Virus record (IMG/VR): IMGVR_UViG_3300032163_000028
Span: 1 to 46,482 of that record
Length of the DNA: 46,482 nt
Direction: 5' to 3' (one strand)
From: a virus
In this document: positions 1,409 through 46,418 of the stretch, piece by piece
Layout: the number at the start of each line of letters is the position of its first letter
Numbering within the stretch: the first letter of the stretch is position 1
Notes under the pieces: generated by a model
Database searches by the model: none
Told to the model about the DNA's origin: nothing
What the model saw: the letters and a program-made list of their open reading frames with translations, nothing else
Translations under genes and position numbers: made by a program

Positions 1409-1834
1409 ATGAAAGAGAAAAAGGAGGTAACTGGTATGGAATGGATTAACAACTTATCCCTAGAACTTCAGATGATTAAGGATGACGAGCTTATTAACCC
1501 TACTGAAACTAAACAGATGGGGGACAACTCTGCGGGCTTTATGAGTGAGCAATTGAAGAGGCTCTACACGCTGGGGAGAGAGCTTAGCTCTAAGTCTACC
1601 CGATGCCAAGCTGATTATGAAATAGCCTCAACTGATGAGAAACGTCATGAGGCTATGAAGAACGGTCTTAGGTTTGCAGACAAGGCTAATATAATACGTG
1701 AGATACTGTATTATGAGCTTGCTGAAGACTTTGACCTATGGGACAAGCCCTCTGTCGCTATCCGTTCTAACTTCGAGGTAGTCTGGCATGAAGATACTAA
1801 CCCTTTCAGAGCACTATTCGGAGGACTTCAGTAG
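1409..1834 (+). CDS. Hypothetical helical protein, 141 aa
   Basis: Two in-frame starts each have a strong ribosome binding site: ATG at 1409 (after taaggaggtgtg) and ATG at 1436 (after aaaggaggtaa). The first is taken, giving a protein starting MKEKKEVTGMEW. The product is mostly helical and charged, with no transmembrane segment, and ends in a tryptophan/proline-rich region (VVWHEDTNPFRALFGGLQ). No family recognised. The TAG stop overlaps the first LexA-like operator box, so this is the last gene before the helicase promoter. Confidence 0.7.
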   Translation: MKEKKEVTGMEWINNLSLELQMIKDDELINPTETKQMGDNSAGFMSEQLKRLYTLGRELSSKSTRCQADYEIASTDEKRHEAMKNGLRFADKANIIREILYYELAEDFDLWDKPSVAIRSNFEVVWHEDTNPFRALFGGLQ

Positions 1835-1880
1835 AACAAATGTACTAATACTCCAAGCTAATTACTAGCACAAATGTTCG
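1833..1880. promoter_or_regulatory. Two LexA-like operator boxes upstream of the helicase promoter
   Basis: Two 14-base imperfect palindromes of the form NGNACA-N2-TGTNCN are seen: AGAACAAATGTACT (1833-1846) and AGCACAAATGTTCG (1867-1880). They match the Gram-positive SOS box type (GAAC-N4-GTTC) with one mismatch each. The second ends 12 bases upstream of the -35 hexamer of the promoter at 1893. Nearly identical boxes occur at 43495-43588 upstream of the other early promoter. The binding protein could be host LexA or a phage repressor; none of the CI type was seen here. Confidence 0.6.
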
Positions 1881-1927: not shown

Positions 1928-3670
1928 GTGAGACTATGGGCTGAGAACCTCGGTGATGCCCTAGATAAACCCCCTGCACCTATGAGTACAATCATATCTG
2001 GTGGTGTCCTGCCAGATGATTGTAAGGGGGTACTGTACGGCATCTTTAAGGCTGGCAAATGCTTATCTCCAGACACTCTTATAGCTATAAGAGGTAAGGG
2101 TATCTTGAAATTAAAGGATGCCAAGGTGGGGGACTACTGCGTAAATAAGGGAGGCAGGAGAGTAATGTCCCTAGTAACATCTTATGTGCCTGAAGCTCTA
2201 AAGATTAGATTATACAATGGATTGGAAATCATTTGTTCCCCAGGACACAGATTTGAGATGACTAACATTAAGGGTAGTAAAATTCATTGGTCTCAGGCTA
2301 AGAATATTATTCCCAATCGTCATCAGTTAAGAGTGATGACAGGAACTAATTGTTTTGGGGATACTCATATTCCCAATGCTTACTGGCTGGGTCTATTATT
2401 GGGTGATGGCAGTCTTGCAAATGAGAAACTTGTCAGTTTCACTAATAAGGATGAAGAATTAGTTACTGCTTTTACTGCTCCCTTAGCATCCTATACAGTA
2501 AATGATAAGAATGGATGCACTCAGATTAGGTGTTATCAAATGCGGGGCGAGTTAGACAGGATATACGGAATACCAGCTATAAGGATAACTTCAGGGGATA
2601 AGGCTGTTCCTGATTGTATATTACAAGCTACAAAGGATTCACAGATTGCATTCCTTCAAGGTCTATTTGATACTGACGGCTCTTGTAGCCCTACGAAGTA
2701 CGGTACTGTAGAGTTCTCATCTAAAAGTGAGAATTTAATACATCAGGTACAGATAATGCTTATCAACCTTGGAGTACCTTGTCGCTTAACTCAAAAGATT
2801 GTAAAGGGAAACGTTTATTATAGATTATCTGTCTCTCCCATGTTTCATTCAGTCGTTGGATTTAGGTTAGGAAGGAAGAGATACACGAGACATTCGGATA
2901 GACCAATGAGACAAAGACGCAGATGGGGTGACTGGTCTAAGGTGGTAGAGATAACCCCGACAGAAGGTGGGGAGTTTATTGATTTACAAACTAATGGGGG
3001 GACACTAACAGCTAATAGTATATCTACTCACAATAGCACACTACTACGCTATATAGGGTTATGCTGTGCTGGGGGTATTCCTCTATTCGGTGACTCAGAG
3101 TTCAACACACGTGAAGTACGTGTCCTTAGTATTCAACTTGAGATACCAGAGAAGGGGTATATGACGAAGCTACGAGAGAGTAGTTTGTCTCAGGTTGAAG
3201 AGATTAAAGAGAACTACTTTTTCTGCTCATCGTTCTGGCTAAAGCTAGACACTGCTGAGGGCTTAGGCAGGTTTGAGGAGGAGATTAACATCATCAAGCC
3301 AGAGCTAGTTATCGTTGACCCTCTATACAAGTGCTTATCTGGTAGTGAGAATAGCGGTCAAGACCTCACAATTCTATTTGATATAATTGATAGGCTCATT
3401 GAGAAACATCACTTTGCATTTCTATTCTCATCACAAGCTAGGAAGTCCGTCATACTGTCTAAGGTAGGTAAGGTAGACTTTGGTGATGAAGAGATAAGAG
3501 GTCATACCGCAATCCCAGGCTGGGTTGATAGTATCATAGGACTGAGACACGCTGGGGAGTCTCCCACAGAGAGGGTTCTATCATTCACTTTAAGACATGG
3601 TGATAAGGAAGCCTTCAGCAAAGTCATCGTGTTTGATAAAGAGAATGGGTTATATAGACTAATAGCATAA
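1928..3670 (+). CDS. RepA-like AAA/RecA-fold replicative helicase with an intein in Walker A
   Basis: The precursor has 580 residues; removal of a 325-residue intein (residues 45-369) leaves a 255-residue ATPase. The spliced P-loop reads GIFKAGK|STLL, with Lys44 and Ser370 joined. Walker B is PELVIVDPLY, and a sensor-like block (GDEEIRGHTAIPGWVDSI) follows, as in RepA/AAA_25 hexameric helicases and related DnaB-like proteins. The likely role is unwinding DNA at the phage replication fork. No Shine-Dalgarno sequence is seen: the GTG start at 1928 coincides with the predicted transcription start. An internal ATG at 1982 is possible and would keep the full ATPase core. It is the first gene after the promoter at 1893 and is followed, overlapping TAATG, by an HTH gene. 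Helicase assignment is firm at superfamily level; the exact subfamily is inference. Confidence 0.88.
   Translation: MRLWAENLGDALDKPPAPMSTIISGGVLPDDCKGVLYGIFKAGKCLSPDTLIAIRGKGILKLKDAKVGDYCVNKGGRRVMSLVTSYVPEALKIRLYNGLEIICSPGHRFEMTNIKGSKIHWSQAKNIIPNRHQLRVMTGTNCFGDTHIPNAYWLGLLLGDGSLANEKLVSFTNKDEELVTAFTAPLASYTVNDKNGCTQIRCYQMRGELDRIYGIPAIRITSGDKAVPDCILQATKDSQIAFLQGLFDTDGSCSPTKYGTVEFSSKSENLIHQVQIMLINLGVPCRLTQKIVKGNVYYRLSVSPMFHSVVGFRLGRKRYTRHSDRPMRQRRRWGDWSKVVEITPTEGGEFIDLQTNGGTLTANSISTHNSTLLRYIGLCCAGGIPLFGDSEFNTREVRVLSIQLEIPEKGYMTKLRESSLSQVEEIKENYFFCSSFWLKLDTAEGLGRFEEEINIIKPELVIVDPLYKCLSGSENSGQDLTILFDIIDRLIEKHHFAFLFSSQARKSVILSKVGKVDFGDEEIRGHTAIPGWVDSIIGLRHAGESPTERVLSFTLRHGDKEAFSKVIVFDKENGLYRLIA
2060..3034 (+). 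mobile_element. Intein with LAGLIDADG homing endonuclease
   Basis: The intein starts at Cys45 (block A CLSPDTLIA), has a block B histidine in CSPGHRF (His107), two LAGLIDADG motifs (WLGLLLGDG at 153-161 and LQGLFDTDG at 243-251, acidic residues D160 and D250), and ends THN|S at residues 367-370, with Asn369 as the last intein residue and Ser370 as the +1 nucleophile. All the residues needed for protein splicing and for nuclease activity are visible, so it looks intact. Insertion exactly between the Lys and Ser of the P-loop is a classic conserved homing site: the ATPase is inactive until splicing. Confidence 0.93.
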
Positions 3671-13698: not shown

Positions 13699-13708
13699 AC
13701 TGGCTCGT

Positions 13709-29203: not shown

Positions 29204-30211
29204 TTAGCTTACGGTAGCCTCAGCCACAGTGATTGCGTCACAGACACGAATCGGGGCATCAAGGAAGCTGACCTGTGGCTTGCCCGCAGGCATGTCAATA
29301 GTCAGATTCACATTAGCCCTGCTCTGAGCTTGCTTGTGTAGGAACTTAGCTATCGTCTTGTTGCAATAGATGAATGTCTTAGCCATATTCCCAAGGTCAA
29401 CCGTGGGACGGCTGTAATATGCATCTACCAACGCATCGAGTAAGTCAGCCCCACTAGCAGCATCAGTTGTCAGTGCCGAGTAATCAATGTTAGCTATGCG
29501 GATAACGTAGCGGTAATCTCTGAGACATAGCCCTAGTTTCCACTGGAACTTGGTAACATAAGCTGTGTAGATATTACCAGATGTACCAGCAGCATCGGTG
29601 ACTAGTTGCTTGCCCATATCCTCGGTTGTCAGCCCAGCCTTAGTACCTTTAGGGTAGATAAGACTGCATGTGGCTGGACTCCAGGTAATGAGCCAAATGG
29701 ATGTGTTGTCGTCGCCACTCCCGCCACCATTCACAATCTGACTAGCATAGTCACCACTGAGACTGTTATATCTCGGTGCTAGACCGTGCATCTGTTCTGG
29801 ATTGTCATTCTGGTTACCATAGAACAGGGCTGTAGCAACGGTACTATTCATACCCGCTACGAATGCGTTGTCTTCCGAAGCTCGGAAAGCAGCCTCGTTG
29901 CCACCCAGTGAAGCTACATCAACGTCTATTTTGCTATATGCTTCAAGGATGCCACAGAGGTCGGTTACTTGTTTAGTAGTGCCTTTCTCAGGAACGACAC
30001 CGCCATTTAGTAATCTCCACGCACCTGCGGGTTGACTAGAACGCTGTACACTCCTGTTACCAGTAACCAAGTTACCTTCCATAACATTAGCGTCAGCTAT
30101 GATGGGATTGGAGGCAGCTAGGACTTCGATTATCTCGTCAATACCCCCACCAGGGGCTTCTCTCTTAGCATAATCTAAGAGAGTGAGATAAGTTGTATTT
30201 ATGGTACCCAT
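29204..30211 (-). CDS. Major capsid protein, Bbp17-like (HK97-type fold), 335 aa
   Basis: Residues 1-60 (YLTLLDYAKREAPGGGIDEI, then EVLAASNPIIADANVMEGN) correspond to the N-terminal arm of Bbp17-like capsid proteins, followed by the RRLLNGGVVPEKGTT-type region and the A-domain (NIDYSALTTDAASGADLLDA, PTVDLGNMAKTFIYCNKTIA). Length and gene order (scaffold, MCP, cement) support the call. It builds the icosahedral head. Ribosome binding site aaggagactag. Confidence 0.85.
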   Translation of the reverse strand: MGTINTTYLTLLDYAKREAPGGGIDEIIEVLAASNPIIADANVMEGNLVTGNRSVQRSSQPAGAWRLLNGGVVPEKGTTKQVTDLCGILEAYSKIDVDVASLGGNEAAFRASEDNAFVAGMNSTVATALFYGNQNDNPEQMHGLAPRYNSLSGDYASQIVNGGGSGDDNTSIWLITWSPATCSLIYPKGTKAGLTTEDMGKQLVTDAAGTSGNIYTAYVTKFQWKLGLCLRDYRYVIRIANIDYSALTTDAASGADLLDALVDAYYSRPTVDLGNMAKTFIYCNKTIAKFLHKQAQSRANVNLTIDMPAGKPQVSFLDAPIRVCDAITVAEATVS

Positions 30212-39891: not shown

Positions 39892-41337
39892 CTAGTAGGT
39901 ATATACCTTTATCTTATTCTTCTTGTGCTTGTCTACTTCCCTATAAGCTATCATAGCCTTCTCGATAGCTGATATTAAATCATCGTGTGTCCCTTGTCCC
40001 ACTTCAGGAGTCCCCGCATCTGTCCAGTTGAAGTTCATTAGTTCCCTAACTGCTGGCTCATACCTTATTACTGTATTCTTTAAGAATGACTCTAAGTCTA
40101 CAGCGTTCTGCTTCTTATTATCCTTAGTCTCAAGATAGCCTAACTTCTCTCTCTTCTTGTCTGTGCAATATATCTTCTCTTTATGATAGCCTAATCCTAC
40201 CAGATAATTAAGGAATTGTCCACTAAATGCGTCAGCACCACATACCAAATAAGGATTAAAGTATTCACCTAGAAGTTCATAGGACTCGTATGCGAAGGTA
40301 TCTAGAGTCAGGATATTAGTATGAATCACAGCAACGAGTTCAGTACTCACACCTTTACTACCAAAGATTAGCAGGGCTTGGTAATCTCCACCTTTACCTT
40401 CGGAACAGTCAGCACCAGCGGTATAGGTCATACCAATCTCAGGATATTGGAAGATGTAAGTGTTACCATGTCTTACTTCCTTTGGCTTGGATTCCTTACA
40501 AATACTGAATAGACTTTCAAGTATGTTGGTATTTATGATACTACGCTGTCCTGCTAGGCTCAGGGCTTCAACTTCAGTCCGTGGGTACAACTTGTGCATC
40601 ATATAAGACGGATAGTCTTTGGCTGTCCTCTCATACCAATCCTCATCTCTACCAGGTCTAACACTATACGGGAGAAAGAGGGATACGAAGTTATTGCTAC
40701 CATCATGTGCATCTCTATAGAGTTTCTTAAAGTGTGTTAAACCTGCAGTTTCATCAGTGGCAGATACGACTACCATCTTAGAATCACCCGCCTCTACAGT
40801 GGGCTTCACATTACTGAAGTTACGTTCAGCGTAGGTATGAAATTCATTCTCATCACATATAACTAAAGATGCTGTGTAGCCAATACCAGCGTCCTCAGTA
40901 GAAGGAAGGGCAAGGATAGAGGAGTTCTGTTGCTTGAATTTAACATAGAATGTGCCCCAGTTCTCTGCGTCCATTTGAAGGTAAGGAGGTAGGTGTGAGT
41001 GTATGAACTTGGCTTTGCCTAGGAGTTCGGCTGCTTCATCCTTGCCCTTGCTTATCATCAGGACTCTAGCACCTTGTTTGTAACAATGGTGGATAGCGAT
41101 ACCAGCTAATGCCCAGCTAATGCCTATCTGTCTAGCTTTCACTACCACTACAAACTTGTTATTGTAGACTAAGCATATAAAATCCTTGAGATGTTCCCAC
41201 AGTTCAAAGGGGATTATGGAGAAAGTGGTGGCATCCTCTATATGGACATTACTAAACCATGTCAGAGGATTCACCATACACTCTGATAGGACAGCTATTT
41301 GGTCTTCAATGCTGAGTTCAGTCGTTGTAAGGTTCAT
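39892..41337 (-). CDS. terL: Terminase large subunit, 481 aa
   Basis: ATPase motifs: a Walker A-like VVVVKARQIGISWAL (about residue 65), and Walker B LVICDENEF (about 160). The nuclease domain begins with AGADCSEGKGGDYQ (about 310) and has further acidic residues (VCGADAFSG, the late DDLISAIEKA). The enzyme packages phage DNA by ATP-driven translocation and cuts it at headful or site-specific ends. The start overlaps the preceding gene by 20 bases, with aaaggg as ribosome binding site. Confidence 0.93.
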   Translation of the reverse strand: MNLTTTELSIEDQIAVLSECMVNPLTWFSNVHIEDATTFSIIPFELWEHLKDFICLVYNNKFVVVVKARQIGISWALAGIAIHHCYKQGARVLMISKGKDEAAELLGKAKFIHSHLPPYLQMDAENWGTFYVKFKQQNSSILALPSTEDAGIGYTASLVICDENEFHTYAERNFSNVKPTVEAGDSKMVVVSATDETAGLTHFKKLYRDAHDGSNNFVSLFLPYSVRPGRDEDWYERTAKDYPSYMMHKLYPRTEVEALSLAGQRSIINTNILESLFSICKESKPKEVRHGNTYIFQYPEIGMTYTAGADCSEGKGGDYQALLIFGSKGVSTELVAVIHTNILTLDTFAYESYELLGEYFNPYLVCGADAFSGQFLNYLVGLGYHKEKIYCTDKKREKLGYLETKDNKKQNAVDLESFLKNTVIRYEPAVRELMNFNWTDAGTPEVGQGTHDDLISAIEKAMIAYREVDKHKKNKIKVYTY

Positions 41338-41707
41338 TACTATTACCCTTTGGGGATATTAAAAGTGAACGTTGCTCAAATTCTATCTGAGCCTGCCTAG
41401 CTCTAGCAAGTATCTTAAAGGATTGGTCGGCAGACAGAACTATCTTCTCAGTGACACTAATTTCAGTTTGCTGTTTGGGTTTGCCCATGATGCGGTCTAT
41501 GAGATAAGTACATGCCTGTACATCAATATCAGCATGAAAACCAGTGTTCTCCCCACAATGAGGACATAACATGGGAGCACCGCTGGCAACAGCAACTAGA
41601 GCATCAATAATGTCAGAGAGTTCTTCTTTCTCTAACTTCTCTAATCGCTTCTTTAGTTCATTAGTAGCAGTACGCTTACGCCCACTCCTACCTTTCACCC
41701 CACTCAT
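41318..41707 (-). CDS. Terminase small subunit-like protein, 129 aa
   Basis: Starts MSGVKGRSGRKRTATNELKK, the usual beginning of phage small terminases, followed by a helical part and an unusual CPHCGENTGFH motif that may bind zinc. It lies directly upstream of terL and overlaps it. The -10 hexamer of the promoter (41721-41716) ends eight bases before the ATG, so the mRNA would be almost leaderless; no Shine-Dalgarno sequence is seen. Confidence 0.8.
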   Translation of the reverse strand: MSGVKGRSGRKRTATNELKKRLEKLEKEELSDIIDALVAVASGAPMLCPHCGENTGFHADIDVQACTYLIDRIMGKPKQQTEISVTEKIVLSADQSFKILARARQAQIEFEQRSLLISPKGNSNEPYND

Positions 41708-41715
41708 CCGATTGT

Positions 41716-41745
41716 ATTCTATATCTATTCGTACCTGACTGTCAA
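41716..41745 (-). promoter_or_regulatory. Sigma70 promoter for the late (terminase) operon
   Basis: On the minus strand TTGACA (41745-41740) and TAGAAT (41721-41716) are separated by 18 bases. The start would be near 41709, just before the terminase small-subunit ATG (41707). An AT-rich palindromic element lies immediately upstream. A further extended -10 (TGC then TATACT) is seen at 41909-41904, giving a possible longer transcript. Confidence 0.65.
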
Positions 41746-41754
41746 GCAGGCATA

Positions 41755-41819
41755 CTCACTTTCATTTATTATGTATATATAATATATATACTATATACTT
41801 ATTAAACGCAAGTGAAGCT
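41755..41819. repeat. Palindromic intergenic element, copy 3 of 3
   Basis: Layout as in the copies at 1150 and 11444: TCACTTTCAT, an AT palindrome (tatatataatatatatacta...), and AAACGCAAGTGAAGCT. It sits just upstream of the late promoter. Together with the other two copies this places the element upstream of three transcription units on both strands. Confidence 0.75.
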
Positions 41820-42020
41820 ATATACAAGTACTATTCTGTCATCCTTGACAAAGACACCACCTAGTTGCAGTTCTTTCCACAGGACGGGGACTTTCGCACC
41901 CGCAGTATAGCACTATAACTGTCAACCAAACGTTGACACATCAAAAATCTGAGGTTACAGTTCCAAGAGCTACTTTTACCGTATATATATATATTGCAAT
42001 CTATGCTATGCCTCATGTTA

Positions 42021-42466
42021 TCGTATGCGATACAGTCATATACGAATCTTCGTGTAAGACAACGGGTGCTATGGTCACATGCGATGATGCCAGAAACACA
42101 CAATGGTCATGTGCGATGGTCACATGGAGTCACAACCAGATGGGTGATTGTCATATGCGACAATCCTGTGGCTGGTGATGCTCGCATGTGTGTATCACAT
42201 ACAACATACTGATAGAGTAGTAGTATCATATACGATATACACATAAGACGGGACAGATTGCGGTCACTATTCATAGAGCAATCGAAGCTATAACACACCA
42301 GGTGATGATAGGACTATGCGAATGTCGGTTGTGATATTGTGTGAGACTGTCGGATGTGATGTTATGATAGTCGCTAATGATAATCTTAGCGGTAATGTGT
42401 GTAAGAAAATCACCTGCGACACGTGGATAATCGCATATAATGGTATTTTAAGACGGTCATAGACGA
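42021..42466. other. Iteron-like array, cluster 1 (11 sites)
   Basis: Eleven copies of a ten-base motif near TCATATGCGA occur here, in both orientations: 42021, 42036, 42075, 42107, 42151, 42182 (reverse), 42226, 42312, 42410, 42431 (reverse) and 42457. The most constant part is the 3' half, TGCGA or ACGA. The segment is otherwise gene-free and AT-rich near 41980-42000 (tata repeats). It fits iterons of a replication origin, or a partition/regulatory site for a dedicated DNA-binding protein. Confidence 0.65.
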
Positions 42467-42483
42467 TTATTGAGGGGCATAAA

Positions 42484-42511
42484 AGAAGGGGGAAGATATT
42501 TCACTCCCCCC
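42484..42511 (-). terminator. Rho-independent terminator after the winged-helix gene
   Basis: On the minus strand a stem GGGGGGAG/CTTCCCCC (42511-42488) with an eight-base loop is followed by TTCTTTTA (42487-42480). It stands 54 bases beyond the stop of the gene at 42565-42933, so this small gene is transcribed as a separate unit. Confidence 0.75.
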
Positions 42512-42564
42512 TATTCTGTATTCACTTCTGCTACACTATCGCAAGCGTAGCAGTGTCTCAGGTA

Positions 42565-42933
42565 TTACCACTTCAATTTGGTATTGAGTAGCTTAGCTTT
42601 GGCTTGCCTATTGGCAAGTTGACTAAATGCGCTGTCAGGAAGTTCGCCAGGAAGATATATCATGGCGTGTCCACGTCCATTCTTAGAACGTCTATAGACT
42701 CGTATGATAGCCCCCTTCTCGTGTAGACTATCTACCACCTTGATTACATCTGCCTTCGGAAATTGTGCTTTAAAGGCGTCGTTAAAACCGCTAAACACGG
42801 TAGATATACCATTACTGTACTGTTTATCACGGTACGTTTTGATGAACGATACAATATAGCGTGTGTACTCGTTCATGTCTACCGCTTTACTGGTAGTCCT
42901 ACTTGCTACTTTGCTACTTGTTTTTGTTACCAT
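42565..42933 (-). CDS. Winged-helix-like DNA-binding protein in the control region, 122 aa
   Basis: The ATG at 42933 has a good ribosome binding site (acgaggtgtcaaa); a longer in-frame form could begin at 43035, where the promoter would give an almost leaderless mRNA, or at a TTG at 43056. After a Ser/Thr/Lys-rich N-terminus, residues 20-95 read as a winged helix: YTRYIVSFIKTYRDKQYSN, FNDAFKAQFPKADVIKVVDS, LHEKGAIIRVYRRSKNGRG, then a YLPGEL end. It lies alone between the two iteron clusters, with its own promoter and terminator, so it is the natural candidate for the iteron-binding replication initiator or repressor. The role is inference. Confidence 0.65.
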   Translation of the reverse strand: MVTKTSSKVASRTTSKAVDMNEYTRYIVSFIKTYRDKQYSNGISTVFSGFNDAFKAQFPKADVIKVVDSLHEKGAIIRVYRRSKNGRGHAMIYLPGELPDSAFSQLANRQAKAKLLNTKLKW

Positions 42934-43044
42934 TTTGACACCTCGTTTTCGGCTATATTCTACGTTATAGTCTACGTTTGCTCTAGGATTGCCAGTCCCG
43001 TCTAGCTTTGCACCCCCGTTCAATTCAATTTGCATCGTAGCTAC

Positions 43045-43072
43045 ATAGTAGCACAACCACCCCAGGTGTCAA
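43045..43072 (-). promoter_or_regulatory. Promoter of the winged-helix gene
   Basis: On the minus strand TTGACA (43072-43067) and TGC-TACTAT (43050-43045, extended -10) are separated by 16 bases. The start would be near 43038. Confidence 0.6.
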
Positions 43073-43317
43073 TATCACACATACGAGTATCCCAAAGCTA
43101 CGGCATTTCATACATCGTTATACTAGGCTTGAAGCTAACTGAAGCTAACATTATGTCTAATAAAAAATAATTTGTTCTACTTCAGTTATGTAAAGTATAG
43201 ATACAATAACCGTATTATGTAAAGCTAAAGAGATAATCCTATGTGATACTCATATATATAATATTGATGCAGTAGCGGAGATGGTGTATAGATAGCAGTT
43301 AAATAGGCACATAAGGG

Positions 43318-43465
43318 TCGCATAAGACTGAATGGAATTAGATGATGATTGTATGCGACATTCATTAAGGAAGTATGGAAGTATAGGTGTATAGTCTATA
43401 GTGTTATAGGTGTATAGGGGGGTGTGGTATCAGACGAGAGTATCGGCTAAGATGGTCGCATCAGA
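43318..43465. other. Iteron-like array, cluster 2 (three sites)
   Basis: Three more copies of the iteron motif are found: TCGCATAAGA (43318-43327, reverse of TCTTATGCGA), TTGTATGCGA (43349-43358) and TCGCATCAGA (43456-43465, reverse). They flank the winged-helix gene on the other side from cluster 1. The 43073-43490 stretch has no gene; besides these sites it holds short repeats (gaagctaac twice, ttatgtaaag twice, ggtgtatag twice). Confidence 0.55.
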
Positions 43466-43494
43466 TGGTCTAGCTTCAAATAGCTTCGGACTCC

Positions 43495-43588
43495 AGAACA
43501 GATGTTCTACCACAGCACAAATGTTCTGAAAATTTTTTTTATTTTGAACGTGGGCTGAACGTGGCTTCCCAATCCGAACAAGTGTTCT
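43495..43588. promoter_or_regulatory. Three LexA-like operator boxes upstream of the early promoter
   Basis: AGAACAGATGTTCT (43495-43508), AGCACAAATGTTCT (43514-43527) and CGAACAAGTGTTCT (43575-43588) share the 14-base form NGNACA-N2-TGTTCN. The first and third are perfect GAAC-N4-GTTC boxes of the Gram-positive SOS type. The second is identical, except for its last base, to the box at 1867-1880. They lie 43-136 bases upstream of the -35 of the promoter at 43631. Confidence 0.65.
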
Positions 43589-43600
43589 GTTTGAACGTGG
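43545..43600 (+). repeat. Three direct repeats TGAACGTGG
   Basis: TGAACGTGG occurs at 43545-43553, 43556-43564 and 43592-43600, around the third LexA-like box. The GAAC core is shared with the operator half-sites. It probably belongs to the same regulatory array. Confidence 0.6.
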
Positions 43601-43630
43601 AGGTCGGGTACGATGTTCGTCAATGGGGGA

Positions 43631-43660
43631 TTGACAAGCTGTCCGAAGCTGTGCTACACT
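43631..43660 (+). promoter_or_regulatory. Early promoter of the plus-strand arm
   Basis: TTGACA (43631-43636) and TACACT (43655-43660) are separated by 18 bases, with a TGC extended -10 immediately before the -10 hexamer. ATGTTCGTCA lies 18 bases upstream of the -35, as in the promoter at 1893. The first gene begins at 43718. Confidence 0.75.
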
Positions 43661-44191: not shown

Positions 44192-45502
44192 ATGCCACCT
44201 GAGACTGACTTGGTAGAAGTGCTTATCCCTTGTAGACGTTGCAACGAGGAGTTCAGTCCTGAAGATAGCGATGACGAAGAGCTGTGTCAGGACTGTTATG
44301 ATAGCAGGTCTCTTTGTGCGGAATGCGATGAGGAACTGTGGGATGAGAGGCATAGCCGACAGAGGGTTTATACTAATAACGATGGGGATACCTACTGTGA
44401 GAACTGCTATTATGAGAAGTACTCACATTGTGCACATTGCAACGAAGAGATTGAAACTGCTTCAACATGGAACGCATGTGGTGACAGTTATTGTGAGGCA
44501 TGTTATGAGGACTTGTATATTTCCTGTGATGGTTGTGGGGATATAATAAGTAGGGATGACAGCTACGGGGGTAGTGATGGTAACTCTTACTGTAGAGACT
44601 GCTATCATGAAGACGATGAGGAGAGTTCATATTCTCCATACATTCGTGAATATCATAGCCGTAGACCAAGACTGCAATTTCACAGGATAGGTGAGCCAAA
44701 TACTCTAATCTGTGAACCTCTACCGTATGGAAGTGCCTTGTATCTGGGAGTTGAGTTGGAAGTAGATGAGTTCGATGGTGATGATATGCCTGCCTGTGCT
44801 GATAAATTGCATCGTTTGTCTCATGATGAGAGGTTGTTTCACATGGAGACCGATGGCTCTATTAACTATGGCTTTGAAGTAATCTCTCAACCATGCACAT
44901 TAGAGTATCACCTTACAGAGTTTGGTTGGAAAGAACTTTCAGAGATAGTGGTGAATTATGGTGGAAGAAGCCATAACACAAGCACTTGCGGACTTCACAT
45001 TCACTTTAATAAAACATTCTTTGGGGTTACTGAGAAGGCAAATGACCTACACTCACTAAAGTTATTGTATCTTTTTGAGAAGTTTTGGGAACAGTTTGTT
45101 ATATTCTCAAGACGTAGAGGTGAGAGTTGGATTCATTACGCTGAGAGATACAACGAAACCTTTGACACTGTGGGTAAAGTGGCTCATCTGAAGAATGGGA
45201 ATTATGGGAGATACTTTGCGGTAAACATTCAGCCAGAGGACACAATAGAACTTCGCATATTCAGAGGGACTCTCAACATCAATACTCTGTTTGCCACATT
45301 AGAGCTTGTAGATTTCCTTGTCCGCTATTGCAAGAGGCACACCATTAGCCTGGTGCAGACTCTAACTTGGGAGAAGCTGGTCGAAGCTATTCCTTCCAAG
45401 TACGAGTATCTGCTGAAGTACCTTGAGAGCATAAACTTAAAACACTCAGAGACAATAATTGAAGGAGGTGTACCGAATGTGTTTGATAGTGAGCAAGCCT
45501 AG
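44192..45502 (+). CDS. Zinc-finger amidoligase (COOH-NH2 ligase, Amidoligase_2-like), 436 aa
   Basis: The first 145 residues contain five or more CxxC pairs (CRRCNEEF, CQDC, CAEC, CENC, CAHC, CEAC, CDGCG, CRDC), LIM/treble-clef-like zinc fingers. Residues about 185-400 are the amidoligase domain of the glutamine-synthetase-like fold: GVELEVDEFDG, FHMETDGSINYGFEVISQP, TCGLHIHFNKTFF and ELRIFRGTLN. Family members join a carboxyl group to an amine with ATP; the phage members have been predicted to modify peptides or the cell wall. The next gene is a class II glutamine amidotransferase-like protein, a known pairing. Ribosome binding site aaaggaggtgag. Domain calls are firm; the substrate is unknown. 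Confidence 0.88.
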   Translation: MPPETDLVEVLIPCRRCNEEFSPEDSDDEELCQDCYDSRSLCAECDEELWDERHSRQRVYTNNDGDTYCENCYYEKYSHCAHCNEEIETASTWNACGDSYCEACYEDLYISCDGCGDIISRDDSYGGSDGNSYCRDCYHEDDEESSYSPYIREYHSRRPRLQFHRIGEPNTLICEPLPYGSALYLGVELEVDEFDGDDMPACADKLHRLSHDERLFHMETDGSINYGFEVISQPCTLEYHLTEFGWKELSEIVVNYGGRSHNTSTCGLHIHFNKTFFGVTEKANDLHSLKLLYLFEKFWEQFVIFSRRRGESWIHYAERYNETFDTVGKVAHLKNGNYGRYFAVNIQPEDTIELRIFRGTLNINTLFATLELVDFLVRYCKRHTISLVQTLTWEKLVEAIPSKYEYLLKYLESINLKHSETIIEGGVPNVFDSEQA

Positions 45503-46418
45503 AAAGGTAAGATTCCCGAAGGGGAAGCAGTTAAAGAGGTGGTTTGATGAGCATGATGATGGCTTTGGTCTTATGTTTCAAGATAAAGATAAAGTTCATA
45601 TCATGAAAGGTGCTATGACCTTGAGTGATATGTTCAAGCTCATCAATAAGGTAAGAGATTACATTAAGCCGACCAAACTGGATAACATACATATCATAAT
45701 GCACTTTAGGCAAGCCACTGGTGGCAAGGTGTGTCCTGAGAATTGCCACCCCTTCCCTGTAGGTGGTTCAGGTTTTGGAGAGCTGGACACATTGGTCGAT
45801 ATGGGATTGGTACACAATGGGATTATCTGGGACTACGGGACATACTCTAAAGGTACATGGGAGTTCGGAGGGGCTGATAGCAAGACTGATACACAAGAGT
45901 TTATTGAGGACTACCTCACTGAGATTGGGGATGCTATCTTTAACCCAAGTGTGCAGGCTATGATAGAGGACTTCTCCAGCAGTAAATTCGCTGTAATGTC
46001 GGGGAACACGGTAGCTCTTATTGGAGATTTTATTAAGGACAAGGGTGGTTTGATGTTCTCCAATGGCGGTTACAAACCTATTCCCAATCCAATACCAGTA
46101 GCAGTAGAGAAAGTGCCTGCTAACTTCTGTCAACTCCCAGCTGGCGTTAAAGCCTTTGGTGATGACTATGAAGAAGACAATGAACTGTTCGGTTCTACTA
46201 GGCGGACAGAACAGTGTGACTTCTGTGAGAAGTTTGATGACGTCGACAAGATGATAGACACTGGAGACTACTTCCTGTGTAGAGATTGTTCACAAGAGTA
46301 TGATAAGTGGTGGCTTTCGGAAGATAGTGCAGCAAACACACCACCATTTAAGCATACAAACCCTAGACATATCAACCACCGTGTTCGCTACGTAGGAAAC
46401 AGATACGCTGGACTATAG
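45477..46418 (+). CDS. Class II glutamine amidotransferase-like (Ntn hydrolase) protein, 313 aa
   Basis: The ATG at 45477 is chosen because it has gaaggaggtg upstream and gives Met-Cys at the start: Cys2 would be the N-terminal nucleophile after Met removal. Conserved class II signatures follow: FRQATGG (about 77-83), ENCHPF (His91), LVHNGII (about 111-117) and DSKTDTQEF. Residues 230-275 hold a zinc ribbon (CDFCEKFDDVDKMIDTG, FLCRDC). It could release ammonia from glutamine for, or hydrolyse the product of, the amidoligase whose gene it overlaps by 26 bases. The 3' end recurs at the left window edge. Confidence 0.85.
   Translation: MCLIVSKPRKVRFPKGKQLKRWFDEHDDGFGLMFQDKDKVHIMKGAMTLSDMFKLINKVRDYIKPTKLDNIHIIMHFRQATGGKVCPENCHPFPVGGSGFGELDTLVDMGLVHNGIIWDYGTYSKGTWEFGGADSKTDTQEFIEDYLTEIGDAIFNPSVQAMIEDFSSSKFAVMSGNTVALIGDFIKDKGGLMFSNGGYKPIPNPIPVAVEKVPANFCQLPAGVKAFGDDYEEDNELFGSTRRTEQCDFCEKFDDVDKMIDTGDYFLCRDCSQEYDKWWLSEDSAANTPPFKHTNPRHINHRVRYVGNRYAGL

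Follow-up and report, generated by a model that had tools for sequence, protein, structure and literature searches.

In iteron plasmids, and at oriR-incA of P1, repeats flank the initiator gene on both sides, an arrangement that resembles the array and candidate initiator gene described here. At ori-lambda, 19-bp inverted-repeat iterons adjoin an AT-rich tract and are bound by O dimers (PMC7466680). The origin of the PLE satellite contains semi-palindromic iterons in a noncoding region, to which a RepA_N domain that forms dimers binds (PMC7145576). We compared with these systems an array of pseudo-palindromes that lies beside the gene for a 122-amino-acid (aa) protein in an uncultured phage.

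The window, a complete IMG/VR virus record of 46,482 bp without a terminal repeat, was identified as a tailed phage by family scans of the encoded proteins. The early operon is located on the plus strand and starts at ∼43.7 kb; it runs out of the record there and would resume at position 1 and extend to 13.9 kb if the two ends are joined. It encodes an amidoligase-like protein, a RepA-like AAA_25 helicase, a Cas4-like protein, Sak4, a metallophosphoesterase, and DNA polymerase A. The late operon runs on the minus strand from 41.7 to 14 kb and encodes a TerS-like protein, TerL, a portal-like protein, and the major capsid protein. The region with the array and the gene for the 122-aa protein sits exactly between these divergent operons and contains the two longest stretches of the record that hold no main gene, of 857 and 785 bp. 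The features in and beside this region are as follows.

41318 to 41707, minus strand: small-terminase-like (TerS-like) gene that opens the late operon; its counterpart at the equivalent place in L032 shares 29% identity
41716 to 41745, minus strand: promoter-like sequence (TTGACA-18-TAGAAT) for the late operon, preceding the TerS-like gene
41752 to 41811, no strand: 60-bp tract with the lowest GC content of the window (17%; GC scan), a candidate duplex-unwinding element
41933 to 41961, plus strand: promoter-like sequence (TTGACA-17-TACAGT) directed into the array and not followed by a long open reading frame
42017 to 42470, no strand: main array of 12 near-perfect 18-bp pseudo-palindromes, ∼15 counting weaker ones
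42487 to 42512, minus strand: terminator-like stem and T-rich tail of the winged-helix gene
42565 to 42933, minus strand: gene for the 122-aa basic protein, a probable winged helix (H-H-H-E-E-H; weak PHROG match and single-sequence AlphaFold [AF2] model) and candidate binder of the array
43045 to 43072, minus strand: promoter-like sequence (TTGACA-16-TACTAT) for the winged-helix gene
43073 to 43469, no strand: satellite copies of the motif upstream of the winged-helix gene, at 43077, 43237, 43318, and 43349 (≤1 mismatch), with a weaker copy at 43456
43146 to 43257, no strand: region of the 100-bp tract with the lowest GC content of the window (23%; GC scan), which starts at 43158
43631 to 43660, plus strand: promoter-like sequence (TTGACA-18-TACACT) for the early operon

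The array motif is an 18-bp pseudo-palindrome, A-N3-TC-N2-AT-N2-GA-N3-T, with the core TCRYATRYGA. Cores in the main array are located at 42021, 42036, 42075, 42107, 42151, 42182, 42195, 42226, 42350, 42410, 42431, and 42457, five of them exact (42021, 42036, 42075, 42151, and 42226), and weaker cores are present at 42325 and 42371. The preliminary description had reported a repeated motif clustered beside the gene and had called for its count, in both orientations, to be compared with shuffled controls. The cluster was borne out by this comparison: at ≤1 mismatch the core occurs 12 times in 42,021 to 42,466, versus 23 times in the preceding 41.7 kb, and 1,000 dinucleotide shuffles of the same stretch yielded a mean of 1.09 and a maximum of 6. 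Four satellite copies at ≤1 mismatch were found in 43.0 to 43.7 kb, where the shuffle mean was 0.42 and 0/1,000 shuffles reached four; another weaker copy lies at 43604. The motif is therefore present on both sides of the winged-helix gene, with satellite 43077 adjoining the −35 element of that gene just upstream, and the gene itself contains no site at ≤1 mismatch. A motif-free test, in which the best 12-mer with ≤3 mismatches was counted on both strands per 500 bp, gave 12 copies for the array, compared to 4 to 8 in 300 shuffles and at most 10 in a further 100 shuffles. The main array is the densest cluster of the window by this test, and the next unrelated 500-bp stretch reaches 7, in agreement with the original observation that no comparably dense repetition occurs elsewhere. 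An 18-bp matrix fitted by expectation maximization (EM) picked out these sites again, with symmetry over a wider span; its best copy is ATTGTCATATGCGACAAT.

Over the 21 listed sites, the paired TC...GA positions were symmetric in 18/21, the outer A...T in 14/21, and the central AT in 16/21. In the array, 49% of right halves RYGA are preceded, at a distance of two bases, by a complete left half TCRY, versus 2.8% elsewhere. The sites are also polar, since 11 of the 12 array sites combine one TCA half with one TCG half, compared to 10 of the 22 matches elsewhere in the window that could be classified. The left block (42,036 to 42,226) points mostly one way and the right block (42,325 to 42,457) is mixed. 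Both orientations occur, the spacing is irregular (11 to 99 bp), and helical phasing was not significant (P = 0.09 at 10.5 bp). Inverted-repeat sites are as expected for dimer binding. Given this symmetry and the irregular spacing, pseudo-palindromic binding sites is a more fitting name than direct-repeat iterons, and the initial account of repeats with a constant GCGA/ACGA end has to be replaced by one of inverted repeats.

The gene for the 122-aa protein looks real, with an ATG at 42933 and, in line with the promoter and terminator that had been claimed for it, −35 and −10 elements at 43072 to 43045 and a terminator-like stem at 42512 to 42487. No Pfam-A match was obtained for the protein even at an E value of ≤10, and so no RepA_N domain is detected; searches against phage records, plasmid records, and the PDB returned either no match or weak, unrelated ones. 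Among the PHROGs there was one weak match, to phrog_270 (“replication initiation protein”; E = 0.0036). This match was discounted as evidence for an initiator because the profile matches in 14/14 control genomes, and a match of such low specificity supports a winged helix at most. The AF2 model, computed from the single sequence, has a mean pLDDT of 60 and the element order H-H-H-E-E-H. Its Foldseek neighbors are winged helices of many kinds, all with E values of ≥0.045 and with VIA Z scores of ≤7.6; these weak structural neighbors are mostly PadR/MarR-type regulators. The protein is thus probably a winged helix, as first proposed: the predicted order of elements fits this fold, although the model confidence is low and the profile match is unspecific. 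It is the position of its gene, and only that, which makes the protein a candidate binder of the array.

The locus resembles the lambda origin and its initiator O in that 18- to 19-bp inverted-repeat sites are clustered near an AT-rich tract in a phage, the lambda protein being dimeric (PMC7466680). It differs from lambda and the Stx phages, which have 4 to 6 regular sites inside the O gene, in the presence of at least 12 irregular sites that are intergenic, and, unlike O, the 122-aa protein has no detected sequence relative and is encoded in a separate transcription unit. Repeats with inverted subrepeats in noncoding DNA are shared with the PLE satellite and RepA_N replicons (PMC7145576), but the 122-aa protein is much shorter than the proteins of these replicons and lacks a RepA_N match in Pfam, and the sites are not uniform direct repeats. 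Plasmid iterons are ∼20-bp repeats in the same direction, regularly spaced and bound by Rep monomers, whereas the sites of the array occur in both orientations at 11 to 99 bp; the classic plasmid-type layout suggested in the preliminary description therefore does not hold. Palindromic sites are likewise found in the operator arrays of winged-helix regulators of the PadR/MarR type, a likeness whose fold class comes from a low-confidence model, and the locus departs from such arrays in the number and extent of its sites and in lacking a sequence family match. Because defining features of each of the iteron-plasmid, ori-lambda, and RepA_N families were looked for and not found here, the locus was assigned to none of them. 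The best fit to its anatomy is an ori-lambda-like logic, with dimer-bound inverted repeats close to an AT-rich tract and a phage that has its own replisome. The array plausibly works, at about even odds, like a palindromic-site phage origin, an arrangement already known from other phages.

The intergenic region at 41.75 to 43.65 kb may well be a phage replication origin with inverted-repeat iterons, a reading in which we place middling confidence. It is the best supported of the readings considered because of the site cluster, the nearby AT-richest tract, the skew minimum, the dedicated small DNA-binding gene, and the phage's own PolA and helicase; the replication genes of the phage comprise those for DNA polymerase A, the RepA-like AAA_25 helicase, and Sak4. 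The tract at 41,752 to 41,811, which also holds the lowest-GC 30-bp tract of the record, is ∼205 bp from the array. The cumulative GC skew, which had been suggested as a check, has its minimum at 42,051, inside the array, and its maximum at 13,703, and the noncoding skew changes from −0.23 (41,708 to 42,016) to +0.31 (array, with the sites masked; Fisher P = 3e-5). However, gene orientation switches at the same places and confounds this signal, and in two relatives (G011 and G014) the minimum likewise lies near the divergence of TerS and the early genes without an array, so the skew lends weak support to an origin.

Several observations count against an origin: an array-bearing relative was not found in the scans described below, the spacing of the sites is irregular without significant helical phasing, the protein belongs to no Pfam family, the skew tracks gene orientation, and there is no excess of DnaA boxes. 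The DnaA box TTWTNCACA does not occur in the window, and the one-mismatch form TTATCCACA is at chance level; DnaA boxes are not required in all phage origins. An AT palindrome at 41,756 to 41,815 was considered as a hairpin and rejected, since it folds no better than shuffles (z = −0.19). Lambda O, moreover, has a helicase-loading domain, for which the 122-aa protein is too short. No known RNA was matched in the region by Rfam. The promoter-like sequence at 41933 to 41961 on the plus strand could drive a possible noncoding or origin-activating transcript toward 42480.

If the region is an origin, the 18-bp pseudo-palindromes would be bound by a dimeric protein that wraps the DNA, either the 122-aa winged-helix protein or another phage DNA-binding protein. 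The neighboring AT-rich tract at 41,752 to 41,811, and perhaps that at 43,146 to 43,257, would then melt, the phage helicase and a PolA-based replisome would be loaded at the melted tract, and replication would run bidirectionally toward ∼13.7 kb. The satellite copies, one of which lies beside the promoter of the winged-helix gene, could autoregulate that gene. A more specific version, in which replication is started by a stand-alone winged-helix protein of 122 aa that belongs to no known family and acts at 12 or more polar pseudo-palindromes (a TCA half plus a TCG half) with the RepA-like helicase of the phage rather than host DnaA, seems rather unlikely to us. An origin at this site would show where replication is controlled in an uncultured phage that, for most of its genome, has no close sequenced relative, and would provide a compact pair of protein and array that is directly testable.

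The main rival explanation, less probable but serious, is an operator array, in which dimers of a winged-helix repressor or activator coat the early/late intergenic region and set both the early/late switch and their own expression. Operators typically consist of irregularly spaced palindromic sites in both orientations, divergent promoters flank the region, and the weak structural neighbors are mostly regulators; satellite 43077 lies beside the −35 element of the protein's own gene, and that at 43604 is ∼30 bp upstream of the early −35 element. The main array, however, is 270 to 750 bp away from the late promoter and covers neither of the two strong operon promoters, simple repression would need far fewer than a dozen sites, and the AT-rich tract is left unexplained. 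If this explanation is correct, the array marks the site of the early/late switch of this phage.

Packaging sites are often located near terminase genes, and the array precedes the TerS-like and TerL genes by ∼0.3 to 0.75 kb, so it might be a packaging start (pac/cos) that is bound to choose the DNA cut site. The relatives of the phage argue against this role. A scan with the capsid protein identified 35 IMG/VR contigs or loci (identity of up to 81%), and a scan by TerL alignment identified 11 loci (TerL identity of 39 to 48%), most with a related TerS gene upstream (33 to 47% identity). Both the winged-helix gene and the motif cluster are absent from all of the capsid- and TerL-scan relatives. 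Because phages with related packaging genes have neither the array nor the winged-helix gene, and packaging would not be expected to involve a separate gene dedicated to binding, a packaging start is improbable. Exact-peptide scans of viral contigs with the winged-helix protein, TerL, PolA, and the helicase found no relatives, and a scan of viral contigs for the paired-motif pattern yielded 13 stretches, none of them an array. A scan of genome contigs for a host matched a single short MAG contig. Repeat clusters at the ends of contig G027 resemble tandem repeats within coding sequence and were rejected as a comparable array. In the data at hand, the module of array and winged-helix gene is private to this phage. 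The major capsid protein itself (29207 to 30211, minus strand) shares ∼46% identity with that of Bordetella phage BPP-1, and the IMG/VR contigs with related capsids (up to 81% identity) mostly differ in their terminase and replication genes, indicating strong mosaicism.

The preliminary description had proposed an origin or a partition site, and the second half of that proposal, a centromere of a type III TubRC-like or similar partition system in a plasmid-like prophage, is very improbable: a small winged-helix protein beside a repeat array resembles TubR/tubC, but scans of the encoded proteins with PHROGs, and of some of them with Pfam, revealed neither an NTPase of the ParA, ParM, or TubZ type nor a convincing integrase, in a set that includes divergent proteins of unknown function, and partition genes normally share one operon. 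The origin half is the better supported of the two, as a reading of the sequence.

A second palindrome family, GAACNNNNGTTC, occupies 43494 to 43590 just upstream of the early promoter, with exact copies at 43496 and 43576 and two one-mismatch copies; it resembles a LexA box of the Gram-positive type. AGAACATATGTTCT forms a similar cluster in relative G011 (L054:6220-6390) and is present in two copies in G014 (L057:17001 and 17076), upstream of related early genes. Two further one-mismatch copies of GAACNNNNGTTC lie at 1834 to 1879 (plus strand), directly upstream of the helicase gene. The P-loop of this RepA-like AAA_25 helicase (1928 to 3670, plus strand) is split (GIFKAGK/STLLRY) by an apparent LAGLIDADG intein that starts with CLSPDTLI and ends with STHN. 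The first long early gene (44192 to 45502, plus strand) encodes a LIM-like zinc-finger and amidoligase-like protein and is followed by a class II glutamine amidotransferase-like gene (45,459 to 46,418). Distant relatives of the LIM-like/amidoligase-like protein are found in Mycobacterium phages, where they are annotated as glutamine amidotransferase domain proteins.
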